A stretch of DNA of 64,000 bases from Candidatus Accumulibacter necessarius (GTDB taxonomy: Bacteria > Pseudomonadota > Gammaproteobacteria > Burkholderiales > Rhodocyclaceae), in assembly GCA_017302435.1 (NCBI GenBank), contig JAFLDL010000002.1:1-64000 (forward strand), in the 5' to 3' direction. Both the position numbers and the translations under genes were made by a program. Position 1 is the first letter of the stretch; every line of letters begins with the position of its first letter. This document shows positions 1,862 through 59,222 of this stretch, piece by piece. The notes under the pieces were generated by a model, which saw only the letters and a program-made list of their open reading frames with translations, had not been told where the DNA came from and ran no database searches.

Positions 1862-1952
1862 GAAGGGGAGCCGAGCACACTGCCCGATGGGCGAGCATTC
1901 TGCTGTTGCAGTGCAGGCCTGCACGCGTCCGCACGGCGGCTAGACTGCCGCC

Positions 1953-2543
1953 ATGCGAGCAGACTGGAGCGACGAACGATTGATGCTGGCCTACCGTGCG
2001 GGTGACGCCGAGGCATTCACGGCACTGTACCAGCGCTATCGCGGCTCGCTCTATCGCTATCTGGCGCGGCAATGTGGCAACGCGGCGATTGCCGAAGAGC
2101 TCTATCAGGATATCTGGATCAAGGTGGTCAACGCGCGCGCCGACTATGAACCGCTGGCCCGCTTCTCAACCTGGATTTTCCGCATTGCCCATCACCGGCT
2201 GATCGATCACTACCGCAGGCACGCCCACCAGTTGCTGGCGCAGTTTGCGCCGAACCCTGGTGATGACGACCCGGATGGCGCCGATGAAATGATCGCGATG
2301 CTGCCTGCGCCGGGCCACGAGACGCCGCACGCCCTGCACGAGCGGCAGACAACGGCACAACGGATCTGTCTGGCGTTGGCAGCTTTGCCGCCTGTCCAGC
2401 GCGAAGTCTTTCTGCTCGCCGAAGAGGGCGGCATGACCCTGGAGGAGATCGCGGTCGCCACCGACACTGGCCGCGAAACGGCCAAGAGCCGGCTGCGCTA
2501 CGCGCTGAGCAAACTCCGGCAGTCGCTGCAGGATCTGTTATGA
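1953..2543 (+). CDS. RNA polymerase sigma factor, ECF (sigma-70 family)
   Basis: A 196-residue ECF sigma factor. Region 2 is at about residues 10-90 (LYQRYRGSLYRYLARQCGN, ELYQDIWIKV, FSTWIFRIAHHRLIDHYRR). Region 4 is at about 130-195 (LALAALPPVQREVFLLAEEGGMTLEEIAVATDTGRETAKSRL), a helix-turn-helix that binds the -35 element. The linker is long and acidic (PGDDDPDGADE). The gene's last codons overlap the ATG of the next gene in an ATGA arrangement, so the pair is translationally coupled, as is usual for a sigma/regulator pair. The stimulus and regulon are unknown. I recognise the fold, not a named orthologue. Confidence 0.9.
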   Translation: MRADWSDERLMLAYRAGDAEAFTALYQRYRGSLYRYLARQCGNAAIAEELYQDIWIKVVNARADYEPLARFSTWIFRIAHHRLIDHYRRHAHQLLAQFAPNPGDDDPDGADEMIAMLPAPGHETPHALHERQTTAQRICLALAALPPVQREVFLLAEEGGMTLEEIAVATDTGRETAKSRLRYALSKLRQSLQDLL

Positions 2544-3262
2544 CCGAGCCGCGCCCTGATTCTCCAAGCGATCCCGAGATCTCGCGACTCTATCGGCAGC
2601 ATTCGACTGACGAGCCGTCGCCGGCCGTCGACCAGCGTATTCTGGCTGCGGCGCGGGCGGCGCTGGCCGGGCGGCCGGCAAACCCCCGCGGCGGTTGGTG
2701 GCAGCGCTGGCGTACGCCCCTGGCTCTGGCGACGACACTGCTGCTGACCGTCACGCTCTCGGTGCTGCACGAGCGGCAGCCCGCAGAACTGCCTGCGGAG
2801 CGGGGGCTGCGGCAGTCGCTACCGCAAGTGCGTGGCGATGAACCGCAGAGCAGCAAGGCAGAGCAAGCGGCTTCCGCTGCCGCCTCGAAAGCCGCCAGAC
2901 CCGCCACCGCCGCCGGGCCCGCGAGCTTGCCGGCGGCGGGCCGTGCCGAGGTGCCACCGCCTGCTGCCAAGAAGACTGAGCGTGATGCTCCCGTGACCGC
3001 TGACAACGCGGCTGCCGGGGGGCGATCAGCGGCCGCGGAGCGCAAGGCGGCACCGGCTGCGATAACCCAGGAAAGCTCTCCTGCCGCGACCACCTCGCCC
3101 GCCGCCAGGTCGCGGGCGGAAGGCGTTCGCACGCCAGCAGTCTGGCTCGAAGAGATTCGTTCGCTGCGCCGCGCGGGCCAGACCGATGCGGCCGAACGGC
3201 AGCTCCGTGAGTTCCGTCGGGTTCACCCCGATTACCCGTTGCCGGAAGAGTTTCGGCAGTGA
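2540..3262 (+). CDS. Membrane protein coupled to the ECF sigma factor (putative anti-sigma)
   Basis: 240 residues, overlapping the sigma gene by 4 bases. There is a cytoplasmic N-terminus of about 55 residues, one membrane segment (about 58-76, PLALATTLLLTVTLSVL), then a long Ala/Pro/Lys-rich linker (about 95-195) and a C-terminal helical tail (WLEEIRSLRRAGQTDAAERQL) that resembles a TPR-like motif. It lacks the HxxxCxxC zinc signature of classical ZAS anti-sigma factors. Position and single-pass topology suggest it holds the sigma factor at the membrane, but this is inferred from context. The low-complexity linker may span the periplasm. Confidence 0.7.
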   Translation: MTEPRPDSPSDPEISRLYRQHSTDEPSPAVDQRILAAARAALAGRPANPRGGWWQRWRTPLALATTLLLTVTLSVLHERQPAELPAERGLRQSLPQVRGDEPQSSKAEQAASAAASKAARPATAAGPASLPAAGRAEVPPPAAKKTERDAPVTADNAAAGGRSAAAERKAAPAAITQESSPAATTSPAARSRAEGVRTPAVWLEEIRSLRRAGQTDAAERQLREFRRVHPDYPLPEEFRQ

Positions 3263-3340
3263 TCTGAACTGCGCTTAACCCCATTCGCTGGCAGCCGGCG
3301 TTTACACGGTGATCTACTCACCTCACTCAAGGAGACCGTC

Positions 3341-4132
3341 ATGAAAAACTTCGCCGCCCTGCTCGCCGCCCTTCCTCTTGCCGGCTGCATCAGCCTGGCC
3401 GACGCCGGTGCTCTGGTCGACGTCAGCGTCCTCGACCGCAGCAGTGGCCAGGAACTGGAGGTCTACCGCCACCGCGGCCGCCTCTACGTCGCCGGGAAGC
3501 CCGGCAATCGTTACGCCGTGGTCCTGCGCAACAAGGGTTCCGGCCGCGTCTTGACCGTGCTCTCGGTGGACGGCGTCAATGCACTCAACGGCCAGACCGC
3601 CGCCACTTCGCAATCCGGCTACGTCCTGTCGGCCGGGCAATCGGCGGAGATCGCCGGCTGGCGCAAGAGCATGGACGACGTCGCCGCTTTCTATTTCACC
3701 CGCCTTGAAGACAGCTATGCCGGCCGCACCGACCGGCCGCAGAACGTCGGCGTGATTGGCGTCGCGGTCTATCGCGAAGTCGCGCCACCGCCGCCGCAGG
3801 TGACGATGCCGTCACGTGAAGCGGACGCCGCGGGCAAGGCCGAGAGCGCCTCGCCGAACGCAGCCGCCAAGGCCGCCGCGCCGGCCAGTGAGGAAGCTCG
3901 CGACCGGCAGGCGGCAAGTCGTCTGGGTACCGGCCATGGCGAGCGGATCAGCGCGCCGACCCAGTACACCGAGTTTCGCCGCGCCAGCGAGGCGCCCGCC
4001 GAGATGCTCACCATTTACTACGACAGTCGTGCCCGGCTCCTTGCCCAGGGTATCATCCCGCGCCCGCGGCCGACGCCGAATCCCTTGCCAAATCCCTTCC
4101 CGGGTGGCTTCACGCCCGATCCCCGCAGTTGA
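3341..4132 (+). CDS. Exported hypothetical protein, 263 aa
   Basis: Starts at an ATG preceded by a good ribosome-binding site (AAGGAG, about 8 bases upstream). The N-terminus (MKNFAALLAALPLAGCISLADAG) is a signal peptide; PLAGC could serve as a lipobox, but signal peptidase I cleavage after ADA is also possible. Residues 25-145 form a likely beta-rich domain (VDVSVLDRSSGQELEVYRHRGRLYVAGKPGNRYAV). The remainder is Ala/Pro-rich and ends in a proline repeat (PRPRPTPNPLPNPFPGG). It lies 78 bases after the putative anti-sigma gene and may share its transcript. No function is recognised. Confidence 0.7.
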   Translation: MKNFAALLAALPLAGCISLADAGALVDVSVLDRSSGQELEVYRHRGRLYVAGKPGNRYAVVLRNKGSGRVLTVLSVDGVNALNGQTAATSQSGYVLSAGQSAEIAGWRKSMDDVAAFYFTRLEDSYAGRTDRPQNVGVIGVAVYREVAPPPPQVTMPSREADAAGKAESASPNAAAKAAAPASEEARDRQAASRLGTGHGERISAPTQYTEFRRASEAPAEMLTIYYDSRARLLAQGIIPRPRPTPNPLPNPFPGGFTPDPRS

Positions 4133-4180
4133 CCTGGCGACTTTCCAGGCGCCGGCGGAGCAGGGCAAAGCGCGTATGCG

Positions 4181-4186
4181 TATAAT
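4181..4186 (+). promoter_or_regulatory. Probable -10 box for leuS
   Basis: A perfect TATAAT lies 35 bases before the leuS ATG, in the 89-bp gap after the preceding gene. No convincing -35 element is visible 17 bases upstream. The same kind of -10 also precedes proA and the adenosyltransferase gene in this window. Confidence 0.35.
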
Positions 4187-4215
4187 TCAGGGCTTCGCCC
4201 ATCTCTGGATCATGA

Positions 4216-6837
<2,622 letters not shown>

Positions 6838-6856
6838 GATTTCGAGGAAAAGCATC

Positions 6857-7369
6857 ATGCGTGCTGCGCTGCAGTCGATCTGGCTGGTCTTTGCCCTGGC
6901 GCTGCTCGCGGCGTGCGGTTTTCAGTTGCGGGGTGCCTACACCCTGCCTTTCGAAAGCCTTTACCTGGCCGTGCCCGACTATTCGGTGGTCGGTGCGAAC
7001 CTCAAGCGTGCCATCCGCGCCTCGGGATCGACGCGGCTGGCGTTGACGGCGAGCGACGCGCAGGCCACCTTTGTGCCCGGCGCGGAGTATCGTGACCGGG
7101 TGGTCCTCTCGGTTTCGGGTACCGGCCGAGTCAGCGAGCTGCGTCTCCGTTACCTGTTTTCCTACCGGTTGACCGACGACAAGGGCCGCGATCTGGTGGC
7201 GCCGGGCAGCGTCGAACTGATCCGTGATCTGACTTACGACGACTCCAACGTGCTTGCCAAGCAGCAGGAGGAAACACTGCTCTGGCGTGATATGGAGAGT
7301 GATCTGGTGCAGCAGTTGATGCGCCGGCTGGCGGCTGCCAAACCGGTGTTTCAGGCCGCTGCCGAATAG
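6857..7369 (+). CDS. lptE: LPS-assembly lipoprotein LptE
   Basis: 170 residues from the ATG at 6857, which has GAGGAAA just upstream; an earlier in-frame ATG inside leuS is less likely. The signal peptide ends in the lipobox LLAACGFQLRG, so the cysteine becomes the lipidated first residue. LptE is an outer-membrane lipoprotein that plugs and helps assemble the LptD barrel for export of lipopolysaccharide. The mature sequence (GFQLRGAYTLPFESLYL, RVSELRLRYLFSYRL) and its position between leuS and holA are diagnostic. Confidence 0.95.
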   Translation: MRAALQSIWLVFALALLAACGFQLRGAYTLPFESLYLAVPDYSVVGANLKRAIRASGSTRLALTASDAQATFVPGAEYRDRVVLSVSGTGRVSELRLRYLFSYRLTDDKGRDLVAPGSVELIRDLTYDDSNVLAKQQEETLLWRDMESDLVQQLMRRLAAAKPVFQAAAE

Positions 7370-7387
7370 CGCACAGGGTCGCCGGCG

Positions 7388-8392
7388 ATGCAGATCAAGG
7401 GTGAACAGCTCGCAGCGCATCTCGAACGCGGGCTGCAGGCGGTCTACCTGGTCTATGGCGACGAACCGCTGCTGGTCATCGAAGCTGCCGACGCGATTCG
7501 CGCGGCAGCCCGCCGTCGCGGTTTCGACGAGCGCGAAGTGCTTACCGCGATCGCCGGCTTCAACTGGAACGATCTCTATCATGCGGCTGGCAGCCGGTCG
7601 CTGTTCGGTGGGCGCACGCTGATCGACCTGCGCGTGCCGACCGGCAAGCCGGGGCGTGAAGGCAGCGCGGCGCTGCAGGCGTATTGCACGCGCCCGTCGC
7701 CGGATTCGCTGCTGCTGGTGAGCATGACCGGCGTCGACTGGCGGGAGGAAAAGGCTGCCTGGATGAGTGCCATGCTCGCGGCCGGTGCAGTCGTCAAGCT
7801 GGTGCCGCCAGGTCTGGCCCAACTGCCGGCCTGGATTGCCGGCCGCCTCGGTCGTCAGCAGCAAAGCGCCAGCGCGGACGGCCTGCTCTTCATTGCCGAG
7901 CGTGTCGAGGGAAATCTGCTCGCCGCACATCAGGAGATTCTCAAGCTTGGCGTGCTTTACGCGGAGGGCGCTCTGAGCGTCGAGCAGATACGCAACGCCG
8001 TGCTCAATGTCGCCCGTTATGACCTCGACGGTCTACGCGAAGCGCTGCTTGCCGGCGACGTGGCGCGCCTGATGCGCACCCTTGACGGTCTGCAGCAGGA
8101 GGGGGAGGCGCCGCTATTGGTTCTCTGGGCGATGACCGAAGACCTGCGCGCCCTGGCGCAGATCAAGCTGGGGCTGGCCAGACGCCAGCCGCTGGATGCG
8201 CTCCTCAAGGAGGCGCGGGTATGGGGAGCGCGTCAGACGCTGATCAGGCGCGCCTTGCAGCGGCTCGATGGGCAGCGGGCGGAGGCGGCGCTGGCGCATG
8301 CTGCGGCCATCGACCGGATGATCAAGGGGGTGGTTGACGGTGACCCCTGGGATGAGTTCCGGCAACTGGGGCTGCAGATCGCGGCTGCCTGA
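7388..8392 (+). CDS. holA: DNA polymerase III subunit delta
   Basis: 334 residues, typical of HolA, the subunit that opens the beta sliding clamp within the clamp-loader complex. The N-terminal domain starts MQIKGEQLAAHLERGLQAVY and contains LVYGDEPLLVIEAADAIR, the usual HolA opening. It continues through an AAA-like module (FGGRTLIDLRVP; LLLVSMTGVDWREEKAAW) to a helical collar domain. It starts 18 bases after lptE, in the conserved leuS-lptE-holA order. Confidence 0.96.
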   Translation: MQIKGEQLAAHLERGLQAVYLVYGDEPLLVIEAADAIRAAARRRGFDEREVLTAIAGFNWNDLYHAAGSRSLFGGRTLIDLRVPTGKPGREGSAALQAYCTRPSPDSLLLVSMTGVDWREEKAAWMSAMLAAGAVVKLVPPGLAQLPAWIAGRLGRQQQSASADGLLFIAERVEGNLLAAHQEILKLGVLYAEGALSVEQIRNAVLNVARYDLDGLREALLAGDVARLMRTLDGLQQEGEAPLLVLWAMTEDLRALAQIKLGLARRQPLDALLKEARVWGARQTLIRRALQRLDGQRAEAALAHAAAIDRMIKGVVDGDPWDEFRQLGLQIAAA

Positions 8393-8420: not shown

Positions 8421-8666
8421 TCAGGAACTGGCGGTGTCCGGGTCGGCTGCCGGCGCGTCGGGAGCCAGATGCTCCCAGAGACAACCGGCCTTTTCGCCAC
8501 GCACGTCGTTCAGGCCACGGCTGTTCTTGGCTTGCACCAGGCACTCACCCTCACAATCTTCGCTGACGACCACCAGGCGCAGTTCGCTATCGACCCTTCG
8601 CTCGCCGTCCCAGTAACTGCAGGTGGCACAAACCTTCACTTCAGCGGGCAGGATCAGTTTTTTCAT
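8421..8666 (-). CDS. Small cysteine-rich protein, 81 aa
   Basis: The chosen ATG (8666) gives MKKLILPAEVKVCATCSYWDGER. Five cysteines are arranged as CATC, CEGEC and a later single C (AGCLWEHLAP), suggesting metal binding such as zinc or an iron-sulfur site. No signal peptide or membrane segment is present. The pattern CATCSYWDGER recalls a small conserved protein of Rhodocyclales-type genomes, with no assigned function. It is convergent with holA and divergent from proA. A longer in-frame extension upstream would overlap the proA promoter and is unlikely. Confidence 0.65.
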   Translation of the reverse strand: MKKLILPAEVKVCATCSYWDGERRVDSELRLVVVSEDCEGECLVQAKNSRGLNDVRGEKAGCLWEHLAPDAPAADPDTASS

Positions 8667-8725
8667 GGTCGGCAAAGGTAAAAGGCGGGATGAGGCTAAG
8701 AGTGTGTTTCTTTCCAGAGGTTCCG

Positions 8726-8756
8726 TTGACGCTCGCGCACCGTCGGTGACTATAAT
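8726..8756 (+). promoter_or_regulatory. Sigma-70-type promoter of proA
   Basis: TTGACG at 8726-8731 and TATAAT at 8751-8756 are separated by 19 bases, slightly longer than the optimum. The -10 box lies 29 bases before the proA ATG. Confidence 0.5.
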
Positions 8757-8785
8757 CAGGCTTTCAGCAGCGCCGGGCAAGTCTC

Positions 8786-10042
8786 ATGGACATCGAGCAG
8801 TACATGCAAACCGTCGGCAGGAACGCACGTGAGGCGTCGCGCCTCATCGCCCGCGCCGACAGCCATGCCAAGAACAGCGCCTTGCGCGCCATCGCGGCGG
8901 CGATCCGGCGGGAGAGCGACGCGCTGGTTGCCGCCAATCAGGATGATCTCGCCGCTGCGCGTACTGCCGGTCTCGAACCGGCTCTGCTCGATCGCCTGAC
9001 GCTCTCGACGAAGGGCGTGGCGGCGATGGCCGAGGGCGTCGAGCAGGTCGCCGCCTTGCCCGACCCGGTCGGCGAGATCAGCGACCTCAAGTTCCGGCCG
9101 AGTGGCATCCAGGTCGGCCGGATGCGCGTACCGCTCGGGGTGATCGGGATCATTTACGAGGCCCGCCCGAACGTCACCGCCGACGCCGCGGCCCTGTGCC
9201 TGAAGTCGGGCAACGCCTCGATCCTGCGCGGCGGCTCGGAAGCGATCCGTTGCAACCAGGCGATCGCGGCGCTGGTCCAGGAGGGACTGGCCGGCGCCGG
9301 CTTGCCGGCCAATGCCGTACAGGTGATCGGGACCACCGACCGCGATGCCGTCGGGCACCTGATCAGGATGCGCGAGTTTGTCGACGTGATCGTGCCCCGT
9401 GGCGGCAAGGGGCTGATCTCGCGATTGCTGGCCGAGGCGCGTGTGCCGATGATCCAGCACCTCGATGGCAACTGCCATGTGTACGTCGATGACGCCGCCG
9501 ATGGCGAGAAAGCACTGCAGATCGTTGAGAACGCCAAGACACAACGCTACGGCACCTGCAACACGGCCGAGTCGCTGTTGCTGGCTCGTTCCGTTGTCGC
9601 CCGCCTGCTGCCGCCGATCGCCGCGATGCTGACGCAGAAGGGCGTCGAGATACGAGGCTGTCCCGAGACCGTCAGCTGGGTCAAGGAGGCGAAGGCCGCG
9701 AGCGAAGAAGACTACGCCACCGAGTTTCTGGCGCCGATCATTTCGCTCAAGGTGGTAGCCGGACTTGATCAGGCGATCGAGCATATCAATCAGTACGGGT
9801 CGCATCACACCGACGCCATCGTCACCGAGAATTACACGTCGGCGCTGCGCTTCCTGCGCGAAGTCGATTCGGCCTCGGTGATGGTGAATGCCTCGACCCG
9901 TTTCGCTGATGGTTTCGAGTACGGTCTCGGTGCCGAAATCGGCATCTCGACCGACAAGATTCACGCACGCGGCCCGGTCGGTCTGGAAGGGCTGACCAGC
10001 CAGAAGTGGATCGTTTTGGGCAACGGCGAGGTGCGCCGCTAG
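8786..10042 (+). CDS. proA: Gamma-glutamyl phosphate reductase
   Basis: 418 residues, the normal ProA length. The enzyme reduces gamma-glutamyl phosphate with NADPH to glutamate-5-semialdehyde, the second step of proline synthesis in the cytoplasm. Characteristic aldehyde-dehydrogenase-superfamily segments include [44 protein letters not shown] and the catalytic-cysteine segment [15 protein letters not shown]. The C-terminus ([24 protein letters not shown]) is strongly conserved. proB is not adjacent. Confidence 0.97.
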
Positions 10043-28689: not shown

Positions 28690-29877
28690 CTACAGATTGC
28701 GCGCTGCCCACGTTGCCATCCGCATCAGGATCAACAGCATTGCGGCCCACAAGGCGGTTGCCAGGATCGCCTTGACGCGGCCGCAACCGAAACTGTTGCG
28801 AAAGGCTCCCCAGGCGACGATGGTCCAGACGGCGGCAGAACCCCACACCAGACAGGCGAAGACGAAGAGTGCCGCCGCCGGGCCATGCAGGGCGTTCTCG
28901 AGCAGGGTCCGCGCCTCGGCCATTCTCTGTGCCAGGGGGGCGCTGGTACGAACAATCGCCAGGTAATCGGTGAACACCTCCGGCGCCACCAGTTGCACTC
29001 CTGTCGCTGCGAGCAAGGCGCCGGCGCAAAAGCCGATCCAGCTTCCCGAATAGATGTAGGCGAAAATCAGCGTCACCTGGCGGAACTCGATGCGCGTACC
29101 GACCAGCCGCCAGGCGAGCGTCAGCAGCGCGGTGAGCAGTGTCAGGGTGAGGACGCCGAGGATCACCCCGACAGCGATCCATTCAGCCAGCGACGTCACG
29201 CCGATGCCGAGCAGGAAAGCGAGGTTGCCCAGGACCAGTACCGACAGCAGAAACATGAAGGCGCGCACGTGGTCAAGCACGTGCCCGGTCTGTTGTCTGG
29301 CGATCAGGCGCGTCGGGTGTGCCGTCAGCTCGAGCAGATCGAGCGCCAGCCTGGCAAAGAAGTTGATCCGGCCATCGCTGGCGCCGCTGGAGCCGGGAAT
29401 CGCCTGTTCGGATTCGATCGCAAAACGTGCCTGCAACGTGGCAATCAAACGGTCGACATCGTAGTTCCAGCGCGTTTCCGACAGTTCCGTTGCCTGACAG
29501 CGCGCAAACCGGGCGAGGGTTGGCGGCAACACGGCCGCGGTCGGCATCACGGCGCCCTCGACCAGCACCGGGATGACCGGCACGCCACCGAGCAAGGCCG
29601 ATTCGATCTCCAGTCTGACGAAGTCTCCCTCGTCGTCGAGGCGGCGTTTGCCATTGACGTCGCAAGCGGTCAGCCAGTCCGGTCCGACGACGGCGAGCAG
29701 GACGACCGAGGTGCCGACAGCACGTCGGATCGCTTCAGCGAAATCGTCGCCGGCGGCAATCGACTCGTGGTCGAGAAAGACCCGGGCGGGTCCGAAGTGT
29801 GCCGCCAGGCGGTCGCTGAGCCGCCCCGTGGCACTCTGGCTATCGTGCCGGCGGTAGGAAAGGAAGATGTCGGCCAT
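28690..29877 (-). CDS. TIR-domain membrane protein
   Basis: 395 residues from the ATG at 29877 (MADIFLSYRRHDSQSATGRL). Residues 1-140 form a TIR domain: IFLSYRRHDS, VFLDHESIAAGDDF, VVLLAVVGPDWL and FVRLEIESALLGGVPVIPVLV, where the Glu in RLEIE is at the expected position of the NADase catalytic Glu. The C-terminal half (about residues 195-395) is membrane-embedded with four to five hydrophobic helices (FMFLLSVLVLGNLAFLLGIG; WIAVGVILGVLTLTLLTALL). TIR domains signal or hydrolyse NAD+, often in antiphage defence; here the effector would be membrane-tethered. No defence partner gene is adjacent. Confidence 0.88.
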   Translation of the reverse strand: MADIFLSYRRHDSQSATGRLSDRLAAHFGPARVFLDHESIAAGDDFAEAIRRAVGTSVVLLAVVGPDWLTACDVNGKRRLDDEGDFVRLEIESALLGGVPVIPVLVEGAVMPTAAVLPPTLARFARCQATELSETRWNYDVDRLIATLQARFAIESEQAIPGSSGASDGRINFFARLALDLLELTAHPTRLIARQQTGHVLDHVRAFMFLLSVLVLGNLAFLLGIGVTSLAEWIAVGVILGVLTLTLLTALLTLAWRLVGTRIEFRQVTLIFAYIYSGSWIGFCAGALLAATGVQLVAPEVFTDYLAIVRTSAPLAQRMAEARTLLENALHGPAAALFVFACLVWGSAAVWTIVAWGAFRNSFGCGRVKAILATALWAAMLLILMRMATWAARNL

Positions 29878-30233
29878 GCCTTGCCTCGCGTCAGATGTGC
29901 GGCAACCGGGTCGTTGCGCCGAGAAAGCGCGATATCGGTTCCCGGCCAAACGGTTGGCCAACTGGCCCGACCGTGGCCGGTTGACGAGAGCGAAGATTAA
30001 CCGGAAAGTCTCGCGCAGGCGACAGAAGCCATGCCGGGGGCTATGCAGGCCTTGTCAACAGGGTCAGAGTAAGATATTTTTCCGATAGTTCACACGGATG
30101 AGGGGGCAAGGCCGTGTTTGCGCAAGGCCATGGCGAACGGCCAGCCTGGCGAGCTGGCGCGGCGAGACGTCTTGCGCTTGATCGACGAGGACGCTGTTTT
30201 CTGGCCGGTCCTCATCACAGAAGGGGGAAAGAA
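29878..30233. other. Intergenic region between the TIR gene and the porin operon
   Basis: 356 bases, divergent. In-frame extensions of both flanking genes run into it but show no family similarity. An AT-rich patch at 30069-30090 may hold promoter elements. No riboswitch or NikR-type operator was recognised. Confidence 0.4.
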
Positions 30234-53485: not shown

Positions 53486-54661
53486 ATGGACACTTCACCA
53501 CCGCTTGCCGGTACCCGCGCTGCCTGGCTGCTGGCCGGCGTCGAACTCTTCTTCTCGCTGAGCTGGGTGGTCTACGTCATCTTCCTGCCCGACTTGCTGG
53601 CGCGCGGCGGGGTGGATAAGCGCTACCTGCCGTGGCTGCTGGCCGCCGACCAGTTGCTGTTCGCGCTCGCCGACTGGTCGGTGGGCGTCGCAGTGGACCG
53701 CGCGCGTGCGGCACTGCGCCGGATCGGGCCGCTGCTGGTACTGCTGTCGGCGGTATCGGCTGTGGCGATGCTGCTGCTGCCCTGGCTGGCTGGGACGCCG
53801 ATCCTGTTCCTGCCGATGACGGCTTTGTGGGTGGTCACTTCGGCTACTCTGCGCGCGCCGCCTTACGTGCTGCTGTCGCGTTACGCTGCGCGGGCGGCGA
53901 TGCCACGGCTGGCCGGCATCCAGTTGCTGGGCCTGGCGGTTGCGGCGGCACTGGCGCCGTATCTGGCGATCGTCCTCAAGGGCGTTGATCCGGCGTTGCC
54001 CTTTGCGCTGAGCGCGCTGGCGGTCGGAGTTTCGGCACTGGTGCTGGTCCGGGTCGAGCGCTCGGTACCCGCGGCGCAGCCGGTTGCCCCGGTGGCAACG
54101 GCAGTGCCCGTACACCGCGCGAGCGGGCCGACCTGGGGCTCCTTATTGCTGATCGCCCTGCTGCTCGCCTTCGGCCAGCAGTTGCACACGGCGATCAATT
54201 CGGCGCCGCAGTTCAGGCGTCTGGCGGATCCTGCGCTGTTGCCCTGGCTGCTGCCGGTCTTCTGGATCGGCTTCAGCTTCGGCCTGCTGCTGGTCGATCG
54301 CTTGGTGCGCGGGCGCGGCCCGCTGCCGGTACTGCAACTGGCGTCTGCGGCGGGTGCGCTGGTGCTGAGCATCACCGCCATCGCCGGCTCGCTGCCGCTG
54401 TTGGTGGCCAGCCAGTTCGCCGCCGGGGGTTTCTGGGGTTTCATTCTCTGCGCGTCGATCGGCGTCGCGGCCGAGCGCGGCTATCCGCTGCAGACCGGCC
54501 GCAATACGGGCGCGCTGATGGCGACGCTGGCAGTTGCGGCAATGTCGCGCCTGGGGCTGGCGGCTTCCGGCGCGGCTGACTTCGGATCGCTGCTCGAGTG
54601 GTTGCCGGTGGCGATGTGGGGCGCGGCGTTGGTCCTGCTGTTGCGCCTGCGATCCGTTTAG
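53486..54661 (+). CDS. MFS-like membrane carrier, 391 aa
   Basis: The ATG at 53486 begins MDTSPPLAGTRAAWLLAGVE. About 12 hydrophobic helices, with the cytoplasmic loops rich in Arg (DRARAALRRIGPLL), indicate a Major Facilitator-type transporter, though a classical GxxxDRxGRR motif is only partly seen (VGVAVDRARAALRRIGP). The substrate is unknown. The last about 27 codons recur out of place at 55642-55722. Confidence 0.75.
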   Translation: MDTSPPLAGTRAAWLLAGVELFFSLSWVVYVIFLPDLLARGGVDKRYLPWLLAADQLLFALADWSVGVAVDRARAALRRIGPLLVLLSAVSAVAMLLLPWLAGTPILFLPMTALWVVTSATLRAPPYVLLSRYAARAAMPRLAGIQLLGLAVAAALAPYLAIVLKGVDPALPFALSALAVGVSALVLVRVERSVPAAQPVAPVATAVPVHRASGPTWGSLLLIALLLAFGQQLHTAINSAPQFRRLADPALLPWLLPVFWIGFSFGLLLVDRLVRGRGPLPVLQLASAAGALVLSITAIAGSLPLLVASQFAAGGFWGFILCASIGVAAERGYPLQTGRNTGALMATLAVAAMSRLGLAASGAADFGSLLEWLPVAMWGAALVLLLRLRSV

Positions 54662-54713
54662 CGCTGACGGGTTAGGGGCACCTGCGCTGCGGCGGGCGAC
54701 GTCCCGTCCGTCG

Positions 54714-55199: not shown

Positions 55200-55641
55200 T
55201 GTTCACCTCTCTGGCGAGTCTTAAAGCAAAAAGCGTTGGCGCCACCGCCACCGGCCACGCACCAAATTGCCGGCGTCGCTGGTGTTCTCCGGCGTCGGTC
55301 CCCGGCTGCAGCGCTCCCGTCGCAGCCGGGAGACACCGCGAATGGCGGTGCCAGTGCCGATGCCCGGAAAACCCGACAATGTCAGAAACAGCATAGAGCC
55401 ACCACCCGGCGGCGTCAATCATGCCACCCGCCCTGATCCGCCGCCCTGCGGAAACGGAGTCGCGCCTCGGCGAAGAAGCAGGCGCCGCCGTCCGTCATCG
55501 CCAGCGGGTCACACCAGATCACGTCGAAGCGCGCTCCGCGGTGGAGAATGCCTTGCGCGAAGCTGACGAATCGCGCCGGCCCGCTGCTGCCACGCGGCGA
55601 TCCGGACCGGCGCTCGAACCTGGGGCGGGTGGTGGGCGGCC
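55200..55641. other. Intergenic stretch without a supported gene
   Basis: About 440 bases upstream of the DUF4124 gene. No intact ORF or RNA motif could be assigned. A minus-strand frame near 55430-55580 (ARFDVIWCDPLAMTDGG) reads like part of a protein but is short and isolated. Confidence 0.35.
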
Positions 55642-55722
55642 CTCGGATCGCTGCTCGAGTCGTTCCCAGTGGCGCTGTGGGGTGCGGCGCTGGTCTTGCT
55701 GTTGCGGCTGCGGTCGGCGTAA
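55642..55722 (+). repeat. Duplicated 3' end of the MFS-like gene
   Basis: The bases at 55642-55722 repeat the last about 81 bases of the carrier gene at 54581-54661 (peptide GSLLESFPVALWGAALVLLL versus GSLLEWLPVAMWGAALVLLL), each followed by a stop and a similar GC-rich tail. Only the final fragment is present, so it is a relic of a tandem duplication or recombination. Confidence 0.75.
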
Positions 55723-55842
55723 CGCGGATGGGTAGGGATCAGCGCTGCCGCCTTCTGAAGGCCAGCGTTCATAGGCGGGGCCGGTCGTTGCCATGGCACA
55801 ATGCGCTTCACACCATGTCGCCAACCGGGGGATCGAAGGGTG

Positions 55843-56673
55843 CCTGCCACGGACGCATCAACACACGCTTCGCGCATCTTCATCAGCTACCGCCGCGACG
55901 ATAGCGAACTTGCGGCGAGCAGGCTGGCCGACGACCTCTGCCGACAGTTCACCCGCGAGCAGGTGTTCCAGGATTTCGCCAGCATCGACCCCGGCGCGGA
56001 TTTCGTCGACGCCGTTCAGCGCGGGCTCGACACCTGCGCGGCGGTGCTCGTGGTCATCGGGCCGCAGTGGCTCAACATCGTTGACCGGAAGGGGCGCCGT
56101 CGCCTCGACGTTCCCGGAGACTGGGTCAGGCACGAGGTCGCCGAAAGCCCCCGCCGTCCCGGCGTACGCGTCTTCCCGCTGCTGCTTGGCGATGCGCAGA
56201 TGCCTGACGTCGAGGACCTGCCCGAGGATCTGCAGGCCTTGACCCGCCGGCAAGCGTTTCCGCTGACTGTCCGGCACTGGGCCAAGGACGTTGCGGAACT
56301 CATCGGGCACTTGCAGCGGGTTCCCGGTCTTGATCGCACGAGCAGCCCGGTCGATCCGGATCACCTGCCGGTTCCTTCGCCGTCCACAACGCCCGCCAAA
56401 GCGTCGCCTCATCCTGCCGCCGCGACCGACACCTGTGAGGTCCTGCGCGGCGACGCCTGGGTCAAATCGAAGGTCGTCGCGGCAGAACTGCCCGCGGGTA
56501 CGAGCTTTCGCGACGCAGCCGATCTGCCCGAAATGGTGGTCATTCCGGCAGGCAGCTTCTTGATGGGCTCGCCGGAGAGCGAGCCAGGGCGAAGCAATGC
56601 CGAAGGGCCGCAGCATGAGGTCACGATCGCCCGTCCGTTCGCTGTCGGCAGATACGCCGTCACCTTCGACTAG
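55843..56673 (+). CDS. TIR-FGE protein copy 1, 5' part ending at an amber stop
   Basis: The GTG at 55843 follows GGGGGATCGAAG, the same leader as copy 2; an ATG at 55801 is an alternative. Residues about 9-150 are a TIR domain ([47 protein letters not shown]; putative catalytic Glu in VRHEVAES). A Pro/Ser-rich linker leads into the start of an FGE-sulfatase domain ([31 protein letters not shown]), where TAG (56671-56673) replaces what should be Glu of a FDEWDAC-type motif. Unlike copy 2 no membrane helix is seen. The TIR part could still be made alone. Confidence 0.8.
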
Positions 56674-56685
56674 TGGGATGCCTGT

Positions 56686-57225
56686 GTGGCTGCCGGCGGC
56701 TGCAAGCAGAAGCCCGGCGACGAAGGCTGGGGACGCGGCCGGCAGCCAGTGATCAACGTCAGCTGGGAGGACGCGCAGGCCTACGTCGCCTGGCTGACGA
56801 CGAAGACCGGCAAGGGTTACCGGCCGCTCTCTGAGGCCGAGGCGGAGTATGCCGCCCGCGCCGGAAGCACGACGGCGTATCCCTGGGGCGAGGATCCGGG
56901 TACCAACCGGGCCAACTTCGGTTTTTCCGGTAGCCAGTGGAGTGACAAGCAGACGGCGCCGGTCGGCAGCTTTGCGCCCAACGCCTTCGGTCTGTACGAC
57001 ATGATCGGCAACGTCTGGGAATGGACGCAGGACTGCTGGAACGACAGGTATTCCGCTGCGCCAGTCGACGGATCGCCATGGCTCACGGGCGACTGTGGCC
57101 GGCGGGTGGTGCGCGGCGGCTCCTGGCTCGACGGGCCGGGGAGCGCGCGGGCGGCCTTCCGCTTCAGGAACGGGCCCGGGTTCCGGAACTACAATCTGGG
57201 TTTCCGTCTCGCCGAGACGCTCTGA
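56686..57225 (+). CDS. TIR-FGE protein copy 1, 3' part: FGE (C-type-lectin fold) with variable region
   Basis: Same frame as the TIR part, continuing after the amber codon. It reads VINVSWEDAQAYVAWLTTKTGK, PLSEAEAEYAARAGSTT, PWGEDPGTNRANFG, YDMIGNVWEWTQDCWND and RRVVRGGSWLDGPGSARAAF, the FGE-sulfatase (SUMF1-like) C-type-lectin fold. The two active-site cysteines of true FGE are absent at the RGGSW...R region, so it is a ligand-binding rather than a catalytic domain. The last 90 bases match the layout of a DGR variable region. It is shown as a separate frame but is the second half of one gene. Confidence 0.8.
   Translation: MAAGGCKQKPGDEGWGRGRQPVINVSWEDAQAYVAWLTTKTGKGYRPLSEAEAEYAARAGSTTAYPWGEDPGTNRANFGFSGSQWSDKQTAPVGSFAPNAFGLYDMIGNVWEWTQDCWNDRYSAAPVDGSPWLTGDCGRRVVRGGSWLDGPGSARAAFRFRNGPGFRNYNLGFRLAETL
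57127..57216 (+). other. Candidate DGR variable region, copy 1
   Basis: The peptide is LDGPGSARAAFRFRNGPGFR, then NYNLGFRLAE, directly after RGGSW. Compared with copy 2, the constant blocks CCG, CGGGCGGCCTTCCGC, AGG, CGGAAC and GGTTTCCG alternate with codons that differ mainly at positions 1 and 2 (for example CTC/GGC, GAC/TAC, AGC/CTC, TTC/GGC, TTC/GAC). That is the pattern left by adenine-directed mutagenesis of AAC codons. Confidence 0.7.
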
Positions 57226-57285
57226 CCTCTTGCTTCTTTGACTCTTTACCTCTTGCGGCGATTGTGCGGAGAAACGGGGCGGGTA
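57217..57285 (+). repeat. Conserved 3' flank of the variable region, copy 1
   Basis: Following the variable region, ACGCTCTGACCTC and then CTTGCGGCGAT, GTGCGG and GCGGGT are shared with the DNA after copy 2 at 59132-59200, with roughly 80 percent identity by eye over 69 bases and no A-biased changes. It may contain the initiation-of-mutagenic-homing (IMH) site expected 3' of a DGR variable region. Confidence 0.5.
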
Positions 57286-57355
57286 CGCCGGCCCGCTGAC
57301 CGCTGCCGTGGCATAATCCGCTGCACACCATGGTTTCGACCGGGGGGATCGCAGG

Positions 57356-59140
57356 GTGACGACAGACAGCGTGTCAATGCGGGTTGCCCGCATCTTCATC
57401 AGCTACCGCCGAGAGGACAGCGAACTCGCGGCGAGCCGGCTGGCAGAGGACTTGCGCCGGCATTTCGCTCCCGCGCAGGTGTTCCAGGACTTCGCCAGCA
57501 TCGATCCCGGCGCCGATTTTGTCGATGCCGTGCAGCGCGGGCTAGATACCTGCGCGGCGGTCGTGGTGGTGATCGGGTCGAAGTGGCTCAACGTCGTCGA
57601 CAGGAAGGGGCGACGACGCCTCGATGTTCCCGACGACTGGGTCCGGCACGAGGTGGCCGAGAGCCTGCGCCGCCCGGGCGTGCGCGTCTTCCCGGTGCTG
57701 TTGGACCATGCCGACATGCCCAGCCTGGACGATCTGCCCGAGGACCTGCAGGCCTTGACGCGGCGGCAGGCGTTTCCGCTGACCGTGCGCCATTGGGGCA
57801 AGGACTTCGCGGAACTAGTCGAACATCTCCGGCGGGTGCGGGGCCTCGACAGTCGCTCCGAGGTCAGACCGTCGCCAGACGAGACAATCCAGCGCGAGGC
57901 CGGCGTGCCATCGGCGGCCGTTTCCAACGAGGTGGAGCGAAAGACGCCGGCTGCACCCCGGGAGCCGGCACCCGAGGCTCAGCCGTCACCCGATCGAAGT
58001 CTCACCGAAAGTGTGCCGCGCACTGCACGCGGTAGCCAGGATGAGGGACCACTGGACCAGACAGGACAGCGTGCCACCAGTACAAGCGAGCTCTTTCCGG
58101 CCGGAGGACCCGCGGTGTCGTGGAAGCCCCTCGCCGCGATCGGCGCGGTGGTGGCCATTGTGCTCGTCTTTTTCGTTCGGTATGCAGGGCAGGAGAGTCA
58201 ACCTGGGCCTGTGACGGCACCGGCCCAGTCATCGGTTCAAGGCAAGAGAGCGCTGGAGAGATCACCGACGACCTTGACTGCAGGCCAGATCTTTCGCGAC
58301 TGCGACCAGTGCCCGGAGATGGTGGTTGTGCCTGCAGGCAATTTCATGATGGGCTCACCGAAGACCGAAGTCGGCCGGTTTGACCCGGAGGGGCCGCAGC
58401 ACCCGGTGACGATTGCCACGAGCTTTGCTCTGGGCAAATACGAAGTCACGGTGGCTGAGTTCAAGGATTTCGTCCAGGTGACTGGCTATCGGACCGAGGC
58501 CGAACGGAATCCTGACCAGGGGCTGGCCGTATGGGACGAGAAAAAAGACAAATGGGTTTGGTCCAAAGGCCAGAGCTGGCGTAGCCCGGGCTTCGCTCAG
58601 GACGATCGTCACCCCGTGGTGGGTGTGAGCTGGAATGACGCGCAAGCTTACGTCGAGTGGCTGGCAAAACGGACCGGGCAAGCCTATCGCTTGCCGAGCG
58701 AAGCCGAGTGGGAGTACGCGGCGCGCGCAGGGACGACGACGGCACGGTTCTGGGGTAACGATCCGAATAGGGCGTGCGCTTATGCCAATGTGGGCGACAG
58801 GAGTGTCAAGTTGGCGCGTCCGGAGTGGCCGTATGCCATTCACGATTGCGAAGATGGCTTCATCGAAACGGCGCCGGTTGGACGCTTCGCCGCAAATCGC
58901 TTTGCTTTGCACGACATGATCGGCAACGTGTGGGAATGGACGCAGGATTGTTGGAACGACGGCTATGCCGGCGCGCCGAAGGACGGGTTACCGTGGCTCA
59001 AGGGTGACTGTGGTCGGCGGGTGGTGCGCGGCGGCTCCTGGGGCTACACTCCGGAGCTCACGCGGGCGGCCTTCCGCGGCAGGAGCGTGGCCGGGGACCG
59101 GAACAGCGACCAGGGTTTCCGCCTCGCCAGGACGCTCTGA
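57356..59140 (+). CDS. TIR-TM-FGE protein copy 2 (candidate DGR variable protein)
   Basis: 594 residues from GTG 57356. TIR domain at about 10-150 ([59 protein letters not shown]). A Pro/Ser-rich linker follows, then one membrane helix at about 254-276 (WKPLAAIGAVVAIVLVFFV). The FGE/C-type-lectin domain covers about 307-594 (PEMVVVPAGNFMMGSPK, VVGVSWNDAQAYVEWLAKRT, YRLPSEAEWEYAARAG, IGNVWEWTQDCWNDG). The FGE catalytic cysteines are absent. A cytoplasmic TIR with an outward lectin-like sensor is the likely topology. The C-terminal 90 bases vary relative to copy 1. It is the intact member of the tandem pair. Confidence 0.9.
   Translation: MTTDSVSMRVARIFISYRREDSELAASRLAEDLRRHFAPAQVFQDFASIDPGADFVDAVQRGLDTCAAVVVVIGSKWLNVVDRKGRRRLDVPDDWVRHEVAESLRRPGVRVFPVLLDHADMPSLDDLPEDLQALTRRQAFPLTVRHWGKDFAELVEHLRRVRGLDSRSEVRPSPDETIQREAGVPSAAVSNEVERKTPAAPREPAPEAQPSPDRSLTESVPRTARGSQDEGPLDQTGQRATSTSELFPAGGPAVSWKPLAAIGAVVAIVLVFFVRYAGQESQPGPVTAPAQSSVQGKRALERSPTTLTAGQIFRDCDQCPEMVVVPAGNFMMGSPKTEVGRFDPEGPQHPVTIATSFALGKYEVTVAEFKDFVQVTGYRTEAERNPDQGLAVWDEKKDKWVWSKGQSWRSPGFAQDDRHPVVGVSWNDAQAYVEWLAKRTGQAYRLPSEAEWEYAARAGTTTARFWGNDPNRACAYANVGDRSVKLARPEWPYAIHDCEDGFIETAPVGRFAANRFALHDMIGNVWEWTQDCWNDGYAGAPKDGLPWLKGDCGRRVVRGGSWGYTPELTRAAFRGRSVAGDRNSDQGFRLARTL
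59042..59131 (+). other. Candidate DGR variable region, copy 2
   Basis: The peptide is GYTPELTRAAFRGRSVAGDR, then NSDQGFRLAR, directly after RGGSW. Of 25 base differences from copy 1 over 90 positions (counted by eye), 22 are at codon positions 1 or 2 and 3 at position 3. Eight differing codons end in C or T in both copies. Confidence 0.7.
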
Positions 59141-59200
59141 CCTCCTGAATCTTTGATTCCTTACCGCTTGCGGCGATCGTGCGGCGACATGGTGCGGGTC
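59132..59200 (+). repeat. Conserved 3' flank of the variable region, copy 2
   Basis: Counterpart of 57217-57285. It begins ACGCTCTGACCTC and includes CTTGCGGCGATCGTGCGG. It lies partly within the 3' end of the region before nnrS. Confidence 0.5.
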
Positions 59201-59222
59201 AGCCGTCGACTGCCTGTTCTGG

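Follow-up and report, generated by a model that had tools for sequence, protein, structure and literature searches.

The DNA analysed here (the window) comprises the first 64,000 nucleotides of contig JAFLDL010000002.1 of Candidatus Accumulibacter necessarius. Towards its 3' end lie two consecutive genes on the forward strand, each encoding a TIR domain followed by an FGE-type domain (Table 1). Gene 2 is intact, and its TIR and FGE domains are probably joined by one putative membrane helix. Gene 1 is broken by an in-frame TAG, which was absent from the first-pass annotation of this DNA, and its two open pieces were searched for domains separately. Just past the pair are RluA-like and enoyl-CoA-hydratase-like genes and, between, an NnrS-like gene (names taken from the translations).

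Table 1. Features of the gene pair in the window, and of the DGR on contig C106 of the related genome G027.
Sequence	Feature	Positions	Strand	Basis or remark
Window	avd 5' end, probable remnant	55556..55618	+	blastn to G027 avd starts; upstream of target gene 1
Window	MFS gene end, partial duplicate (80%) of 54574-54693	55635..55751	+	self-BLAST; between avd scrap and gene 1
Window	TIR-FGE gene 1, probable former DGR target	55801..57225	+	TIR_2 and FGE-sulfatase; TAG at 56671-56673
Window	variable region 1 (VR1)	57094..57207	+	template comparison
Window	3' flank of gene 1	57223..57300	+	first 34 nt common with targets, then like the G027 target b flank, not the avd start
Window	TIR-FGE gene 2, intact, 594 aa	57356..59140	+	TIR_2 residues 13-134, FGE residues 318-592
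Window	hydrophobic stretch, putative single membrane helix between TIR and FGE	58127..58180	+	translation read by eye
Window	variable region 2 (VR2)	59009..59122	+	template comparison
Window	3' flank of gene 2	59138..59215	+	resembles G027 target b flank
G027 C106 (L160)	TIR gene	4087-5496
G027 C106	FGE target a	5528-6565
G027 C106	avd	6606-7001
G027 C106	RT	6985-8058		motif GLPIGNLTSQ
G027 C106	template	about 8077-8190
G027 C106	FGE target b	8470-9471

The first-pass annotation had proposed that a 90-base site near the 3' end of each gene is a DGR target. A codon alignment of 57127-57216 with 59042-59131 reproduced its count of 25 unlike bases in 90, i.e., 22 at codon positions 1 and 2 and three at position 3, as well as its list of differing codon pairs ending in C or T and the unchanged blocks. 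From RRVVRGGSW to the stop codon, the two genes differ at 11 first, 11 second and three third positions over 42 codons, whereas upstream of RRVVRGGSW the corresponding numbers are 30, 21 and 60 over 118 aligned codons. Third positions therefore differ at 3/42 in the variable region versus 60/118 upstream (Fisher p=1.4e-7). Silent sites are homogenised in the region where first and second positions differ most and, given these counts, the pattern is more than ordinary divergence. Because the homogenisation is confined to the copied tract, it shows that copying into both genes took place after they had diverged.

We searched 28 genomes of the genus, including that of the window. G027, apparently Candidatus Accumulibacter vicinus UBA5574 (an identity that we infer), has at least two DGRs of the type matching the window's variable regions, on contigs C106 and C152. 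In the former, avd, the RT gene and the template lie between two FGE targets, a and b (Table 1); the Avd protein scores 113.1 bits, passing the NCBIfam Avd cut-off of 80. Compared with the G027 template over a 114-nt span, VR1 is changed at 16 of 26 adenines and at 2/88 other bases, and VR2 at 16/26 adenines and 4/88 others. Within an 81-nt core, the same adenine counts stand against 2/55 other bases for VR1 (p=1.8e-8) and 3/55 for VR2 (p=9.5e-8). The tract common to both window genes starts and stops near the template ends. The template used in this test is that of a same-genus genome, not of the window's own; the two and four non-adenine mismatches may mean that the own template differed, or that mutations followed its loss.

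As a control, we compared the FGE bodies preceding the variable regions. Mismatches there amounted to 19-35% at bases other than adenine, without adenine bias (mismatch fractions at adenines and elsewhere of 0.25/0.19, 0.25/0.27, 0.37/0.35 and 0.32/0.33, none significant). In the best 75-nt stretch, identity to the templates at bases other than adenine was 100% for VR1 and 98% for VR2. The p-value of the adenine bias is not decisive alone, because an FGE gene on contig C24 of the same genome, which is without DGR traces, also gave p=1.8e-5 against one template, with 80% non-adenine identity; for the same reason, the claim of DGR origin rests on near-perfect non-adenine identity and adenine bias together. 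Changes in both window genes fall almost only at adenines of the G027 template; within the C-terminal end of a C-type-lectin fold, they affect first and second codon positions. This combination strongly supports the view that VR1 and VR2 are variable regions made by a DGR. The check set by the first-pass annotation, that differences should coincide with template adenines, was thus borne out with a sister template; its 90-base site proved real but too short, the template-matching region being longer (VR1 and VR2 in Table 1).

Third positions behave in the same way between genomes. Window gene 2 and G027 target a differ at none of 42 third positions in the variable region versus 44/104 upstream (p=1.3e-8); for gene 1 the figure in the variable region is 3/42. 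The G027 cassette lies between RluA-like and enoyl-CoA-hydratase-like genes (again named from translations), and since both neighbours also occur beside the window pair, the pair is near the same place as the cassette, rearranged, which adds to the support for a DGR origin of VR1 and VR2.

The first-pass annotation had regarded the genes as remote targets of a DGR located elsewhere, and had set as a check a search of the genome for an RT and an AAC/AAT template repeat. Neither was found in the draft assembly (88 contigs, scored 100% complete), nor was Avd, and searches with RVT_1, template, bAvd and DGR RT queries revealed no full DGR in it; the remote-target reading is therefore not supported. 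The RVT_1 profile gave five matches in this genome, all rejected as DGR RTs: in PADLOC, L001 and L002 correspond to RTs of type II-A retrons, L003/L005 is a broken group II intron RT with a match to Rfam group-II-D1D4-3, and L004 matches Drt6/Drt4. Two RT queries found no full-length DGR RT in the genome. A template pattern allowing up to three mismatches matched only the two variable regions there; BLAST with the G027 template returned the same two regions and then chance-level matches only (E 0.37 and up), and bAvd (PF22296) gave no matches in the genome at E<=1. A 16-base match inside a group II intron locus (L013) was also at chance level (E 0.74). On contig C5, a match of a second DGR RT type (L234, E 1.1e-4) was rejected as chance: it lies antisense to a TPR-containing gene whose translation reads as OGT-like, and because of this example we do not trust single-sequence matches near E 1e-4. 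Given the draft state of the assembly, a core could have fallen into a gap between contigs or be carried by other members of the population.

What the genome does contain are apparent scraps. A stretch upstream of gene 1 (Table 1) matched by blastn the avd starts of both G027 DGRs, i.e., C152 (80% over 55 nt, E 5e-8) and C106 (77% over 62 nt, E 6e-7); in this search, which covered the window and 19 other loci of the own genome, the next best match had an E value of 0.004. At the protein level the likeness is 70% over 20 aa (E 0.002), and the stretch is a probable remnant of the avd 5' end. On contig C25 (L181), a TIR/SEFIR-nSTAND1-FGE gene faces an RT fragment of 66 aa that is 82% identical to residues 302-367 of a 390-residue DGR RT frame on contig C132 of genome G007, i.e., it is the C-terminal piece of a DGR RT different from the G027 type. 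The variable region of the C25 gene differs from the G007 C132 template at 9/16 adenines and 3/59 other bases (p=1.5e-5). In the RT query search this fossil had an E value of 1.8e-4, and because matches of that order are untrustworthy, its assignment rests on the 82% match. Given the fragment and the template-matching variable region, a second, different DGR appears to have decayed in this genome too.

In the genus-wide pattern search, matches occurred in 4/28 genomes: the AAC-rich template form was present only in G027 (two copies), and variable-region forms numbered two in G000, one each in G005 and G015, and three in G027. DGR-type RTs are present in at least 15/28 genomes, a lower bound, as the survey covered 44 RT loci picked from a longer list plus one FGE locus. 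Loci were counted by RT motif (20 loci) or by an RT-like frame with template and variable region (11 loci), and the RT-like locus L219, without a template, was excluded. The template scan gave none at five loci counted by RT motif or examined as DGR-like (e.g., L199, L203 and L208); putative templates at L226, L227 and L230 were tandem-repeat artefacts and were dropped, leaving 28 of 31. Three other FGE genes of the own genome, on contigs C18, C24 and C11, also vary in the C-type-lectin loop, the latter two with adenine bias against some templates. Their best non-adenine identities to any of the 28 templates are 77%, 80% and 65%, respectively.

The sister genome G005, assembled as one contig of 5,169,514 bases, has a variable region, and the genus-wide pattern search found no template matching it in G005. 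G005 and the G027 C106 locus have long blocks in common that are 91-96% identical; by BLAST, G005 has no such match to the stretch with the avd-RT-template core and the target b body. Here TIR is fused in frame to FGE, and the FGE body is closer to target a (0.89) than to target b (0.64). In the 3' flank, nucleotides 1-34 match target a at 32/34 and target b at 28/34, and nucleotides 35-134 match target b at 85/93. BLAST to the b side reaches position 7485 of L162, whereas the a block ends at 7316. Because a-side sequence also aligns with this part of the flank, at 41/51 gapped columns, the b assignment rests on the length of the match (93 columns) and on the BLAST blocks. Had targets a and b recombined at their 3' ends, just such a chimera would be expected, i.e., an a-type body joined to a b-type flank without the core. 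Since its variable region is adenine-patterned (11/19 adenines and 1/56 other bases changed), G005 would have lost the core, rather than G027 having gained it.

In the window, the FGE body of gene 1 is closest to the G027 C152 target (0.80; target a, 0.75; target b, 0.70), and that of gene 2 stands at 0.65 to target b, 0.60 to target a and 0.65 to the C152 target; the b-type label of the gene 2 body rests on an inserted stretch in common and a longer alignment. The flanks match target b at low identity, 24/36 (gene 1) and 27/35 (gene 2), versus 4/6 each for target a, and after both genes the b-side BLAST blocks run about 33 nt further than those of the a side (57289 versus 57256, and 59204 versus 59171). 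In G015, a variable region of the same family (C182) belongs to a gene whose translation, inspected by eye, looks like ATPase-LRR-FGE; its flank gave no resolved junction, and it was not counted as an excision.

We conclude that the window genes are most probably orphaned and frozen former targets of a DGR whose core has been lost from the genome (probability about 0.85). In an ancestor, an error-prone RT acting with Avd would have rewritten the 3' end of each FGE domain (C-type-lectin fold) from an AAC-rich template, with random bases wherever the template has adenine. The avd-RT-template core, absent from the assembly, would later have been lost, leaving two fixed variants, one of them now with a stop codon.

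The pair might instead be active remote targets, diversified in trans by an RT and template present in the cell, whether in an assembly gap, on a plasmid or in a co-resident strain. With so few changes outside template adenines the variable regions do look fresh, at least 15/28 genomes of the genus have DGR-type RTs, the own assembly is in 88 contigs, and trans activity together with within-population structural variants has been reported for Thiohalocapsa (PMC10907252). We nevertheless judge this unlikely: RT, avd and template are missing from an assembly scored as complete, an avd scrap lies beside the genes and an RT fossil on C25, gene 1 is interrupted, and the single-contig sister G005 (5.17 Mb) also has a variable region without a matching template. 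Import of the variable tracts by homologous recombination from a co-resident, DGR-bearing relative would explain why these tracts agree with G027 at silent sites so much more closely than their flanks, but it needs separate imports of two different variants, each ending near the limits of the template, and leaves the avd scrap unexplained, and we consider it quite improbable. Under import, too, the variable-region sequence would be a DGR product. Ordinary paralogues under positive selection on a ligand-binding loop, never part of a DGR, are already contradicted by the template comparison and have only a very slight chance of being correct: C-type-lectin loops tolerate variation, as the C18, C24 and C11 genes illustrate, but selection would not erase third-position differences or place changes on the template adenines of another genome, and those three genes fall well short of VR1 and VR2 in non-adenine identity.

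How orphaning came about is the newer and less certain part of our reading. A DGR with two targets carries built-in direct repeats flanking its core, so that homologous recombination joining the 3' end of one target to the similar end of the other could cut out the diversifier. The core was likely lost from the window's genome by this route, and the present pair likely reflects excision plus duplication, the comparison leaving the order of these steps free. More tentatively, and at slightly less than even odds, we suggest that excision between targets freezes one chosen variant as a fixed TIR-FGE receptor gene, and that this has happened at least twice in the genus, i.e., in the window's genome and in G005. 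If true, excision would be the bacterial counterpart of fixing a receptor once it has been selected.

Orphaned DGR targets are of an already known kind. Published work already describes Accumulibacter DGRs, target proteins with TIR domains, and targets that are degenerate or have no RT (PMC10907252, PMC7517822, PMC8144416, PMC7159879, PMC3521204, PMC2704941). Thiohalocapsa PB-PSB1 (Dore et al. 2024, PMC10907252) has both candidate remote targets and DGR loci that have degenerated. As in the window, its C-type-lectin/FGE targets are tied to TIR, NTPase or peptidase domains, and some loci are without RT or template while their variable regions match templates at non-adenine sites. Unlike the window's genome, where an intact DGR was not found in the assembly and two targets seem to have recombined to cause the loss, PB-PSB1 retains complete DGRs, and its losses are tied to transposons and MITE-like arrays. 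The same source lists Accumulibacter as one of the organisms that have several related DGRs. Cyanobacterial remote variable proteins, among whose targets are TIR-like domains, also persist without a nearby RT (e.g., all3226, with remnant template-variable region homology; PMC7517822), but there the remnant homology lies inside one genome, whereas for the window pair it is near relatives with and without the core that are compared. Also close to the pair is the G027 C106 DGR itself, with a template near-identical at non-adenine sites, related targets and the same neighbour genes; it differs in having TIR and FGE as separate genes and in having the avd-RT-template core. Among the best literature matches listed, none was about excision of a DGR core between two targets, judging from titles and abstract openings, and we do not claim novelty.

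The locus shows what may become of hypermutated sensors once the mutator is gone, and near relatives differ in whether the core is present there. This makes it possible to test whether loss of the diversifier is random or follows the discovery of a useful variant. DGR surveys anchored on the RT miss targets in genomes without one.

Divergence of the TIR domain between the window and G027 is substantial (dS about 0.7). Because the variable regions resemble the G027 template at silent sites much more than their flanks do, either that template has been unusually conserved or horizontally shared, or the variable regions would have been refreshed late. Between the two G027 templates, surroundings included, 6/220 nt differ; their RTs differ at 98/357 third positions. 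In the five TIR comparisons with a window gene, dN/dS was 0.17-0.24, so selection maintained these domains over most of that period; for the G005-G027 TIR pair it was 0.68, with six changes, too few to tell.

A predicted model of the FGE domain (pLDDT 95.7) resembles PvdO, FGE and TvpA by Foldseek. TvpA (2y3c), a DGR variable protein of Treponema denticola, has the same FGE-type C-type-lectin fold as the window domain (phmmer E 3.6e-7; Foldseek E 6e-15, TMq 0.70, with 22% identity in the structural match). Its variable region lies at the C-terminus, like those of the window genes; unlike them, it is not known to have a TIR domain. From its domains, gene 2 could be a sensor in which a cytosolic TIR effector is coupled to an outward lectin-fold recognition surface, now fixed. 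On binding a ligand, that surface would switch on the TIR effector (for NAD+ cleavage or signalling), perhaps in defence or in self/non-self conflict. The TIR domain gave weak PADLOC matches to SAVED_TIR (E 3e-8) and ThsB (E 3e-6).

Within the genome itself, a second contig (C25) carries a gene of TIR/SEFIR-nSTAND1-FGE architecture (FGE being the C-type-lectin-fold domain), separated by a long inverted repeat from a facing fossil of the C-terminal end of a DGR reverse transcriptase (RT). This locus appears to be a second decayed DGR in the genome. Other RTs in the genome include two type II-A-like retrons, on C8 (with an NDT_II-A gene upstream) and C7, and a Drt4/6-like antiviral RT on C81.

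Two of the DGR loci of the same-genus genome G027 (L160 and L163) differed at only 6 of 220 nucleotides across the template and ~100 nt downstream, whereas their RT genes differed at 98 of 357 third positions. This may reflect either conservation of the template RNA or template-to-template conversion.

Further features are listed in the table. In G005, TIR and FGE are fused in frame; its near relative G027 has two separate genes. The FGE gene of G015 (ATPase-LRR-FGE by eye) has a variable region of the same template family as those of the window, and directly downstream lies sequence resembling another template or target end. Contig C125 of G001, a further genome of the genus, carries a complete DGR besides an FGE gene with an in-frame stop codon.

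Coordinates of features in the window and in related loci
Feature	Location	Remarks
Further TIR-domain-like stretch	window 29401-29886 (- strand)	454 aa open frame; 39% to TIR of target gene 2
Partial MFS-gene-end copy	window 55635-55751	80% to 54574-54693; between probable avd remnant and target gene 1
TIR/SEFIR-nSTAND1-FGE gene and facing RT fossil	L181 (own genome, C25) 2000-5218 and 2207-2407	
Inverted repeat	L181 2396-2434	arms ~18 bp, by eye
Retrons	L001 (C8); L002 (C7)	
Drt4/6-like RT	L004 (C81)	
TIR-FGE fusion	L162 (G005) 5727-7280	
Another interrupted FGE gene	G001:C125:27258-27722 (within L161)	in-frame TAG
FGE gene	L231 (G015:C182) 1949-4702
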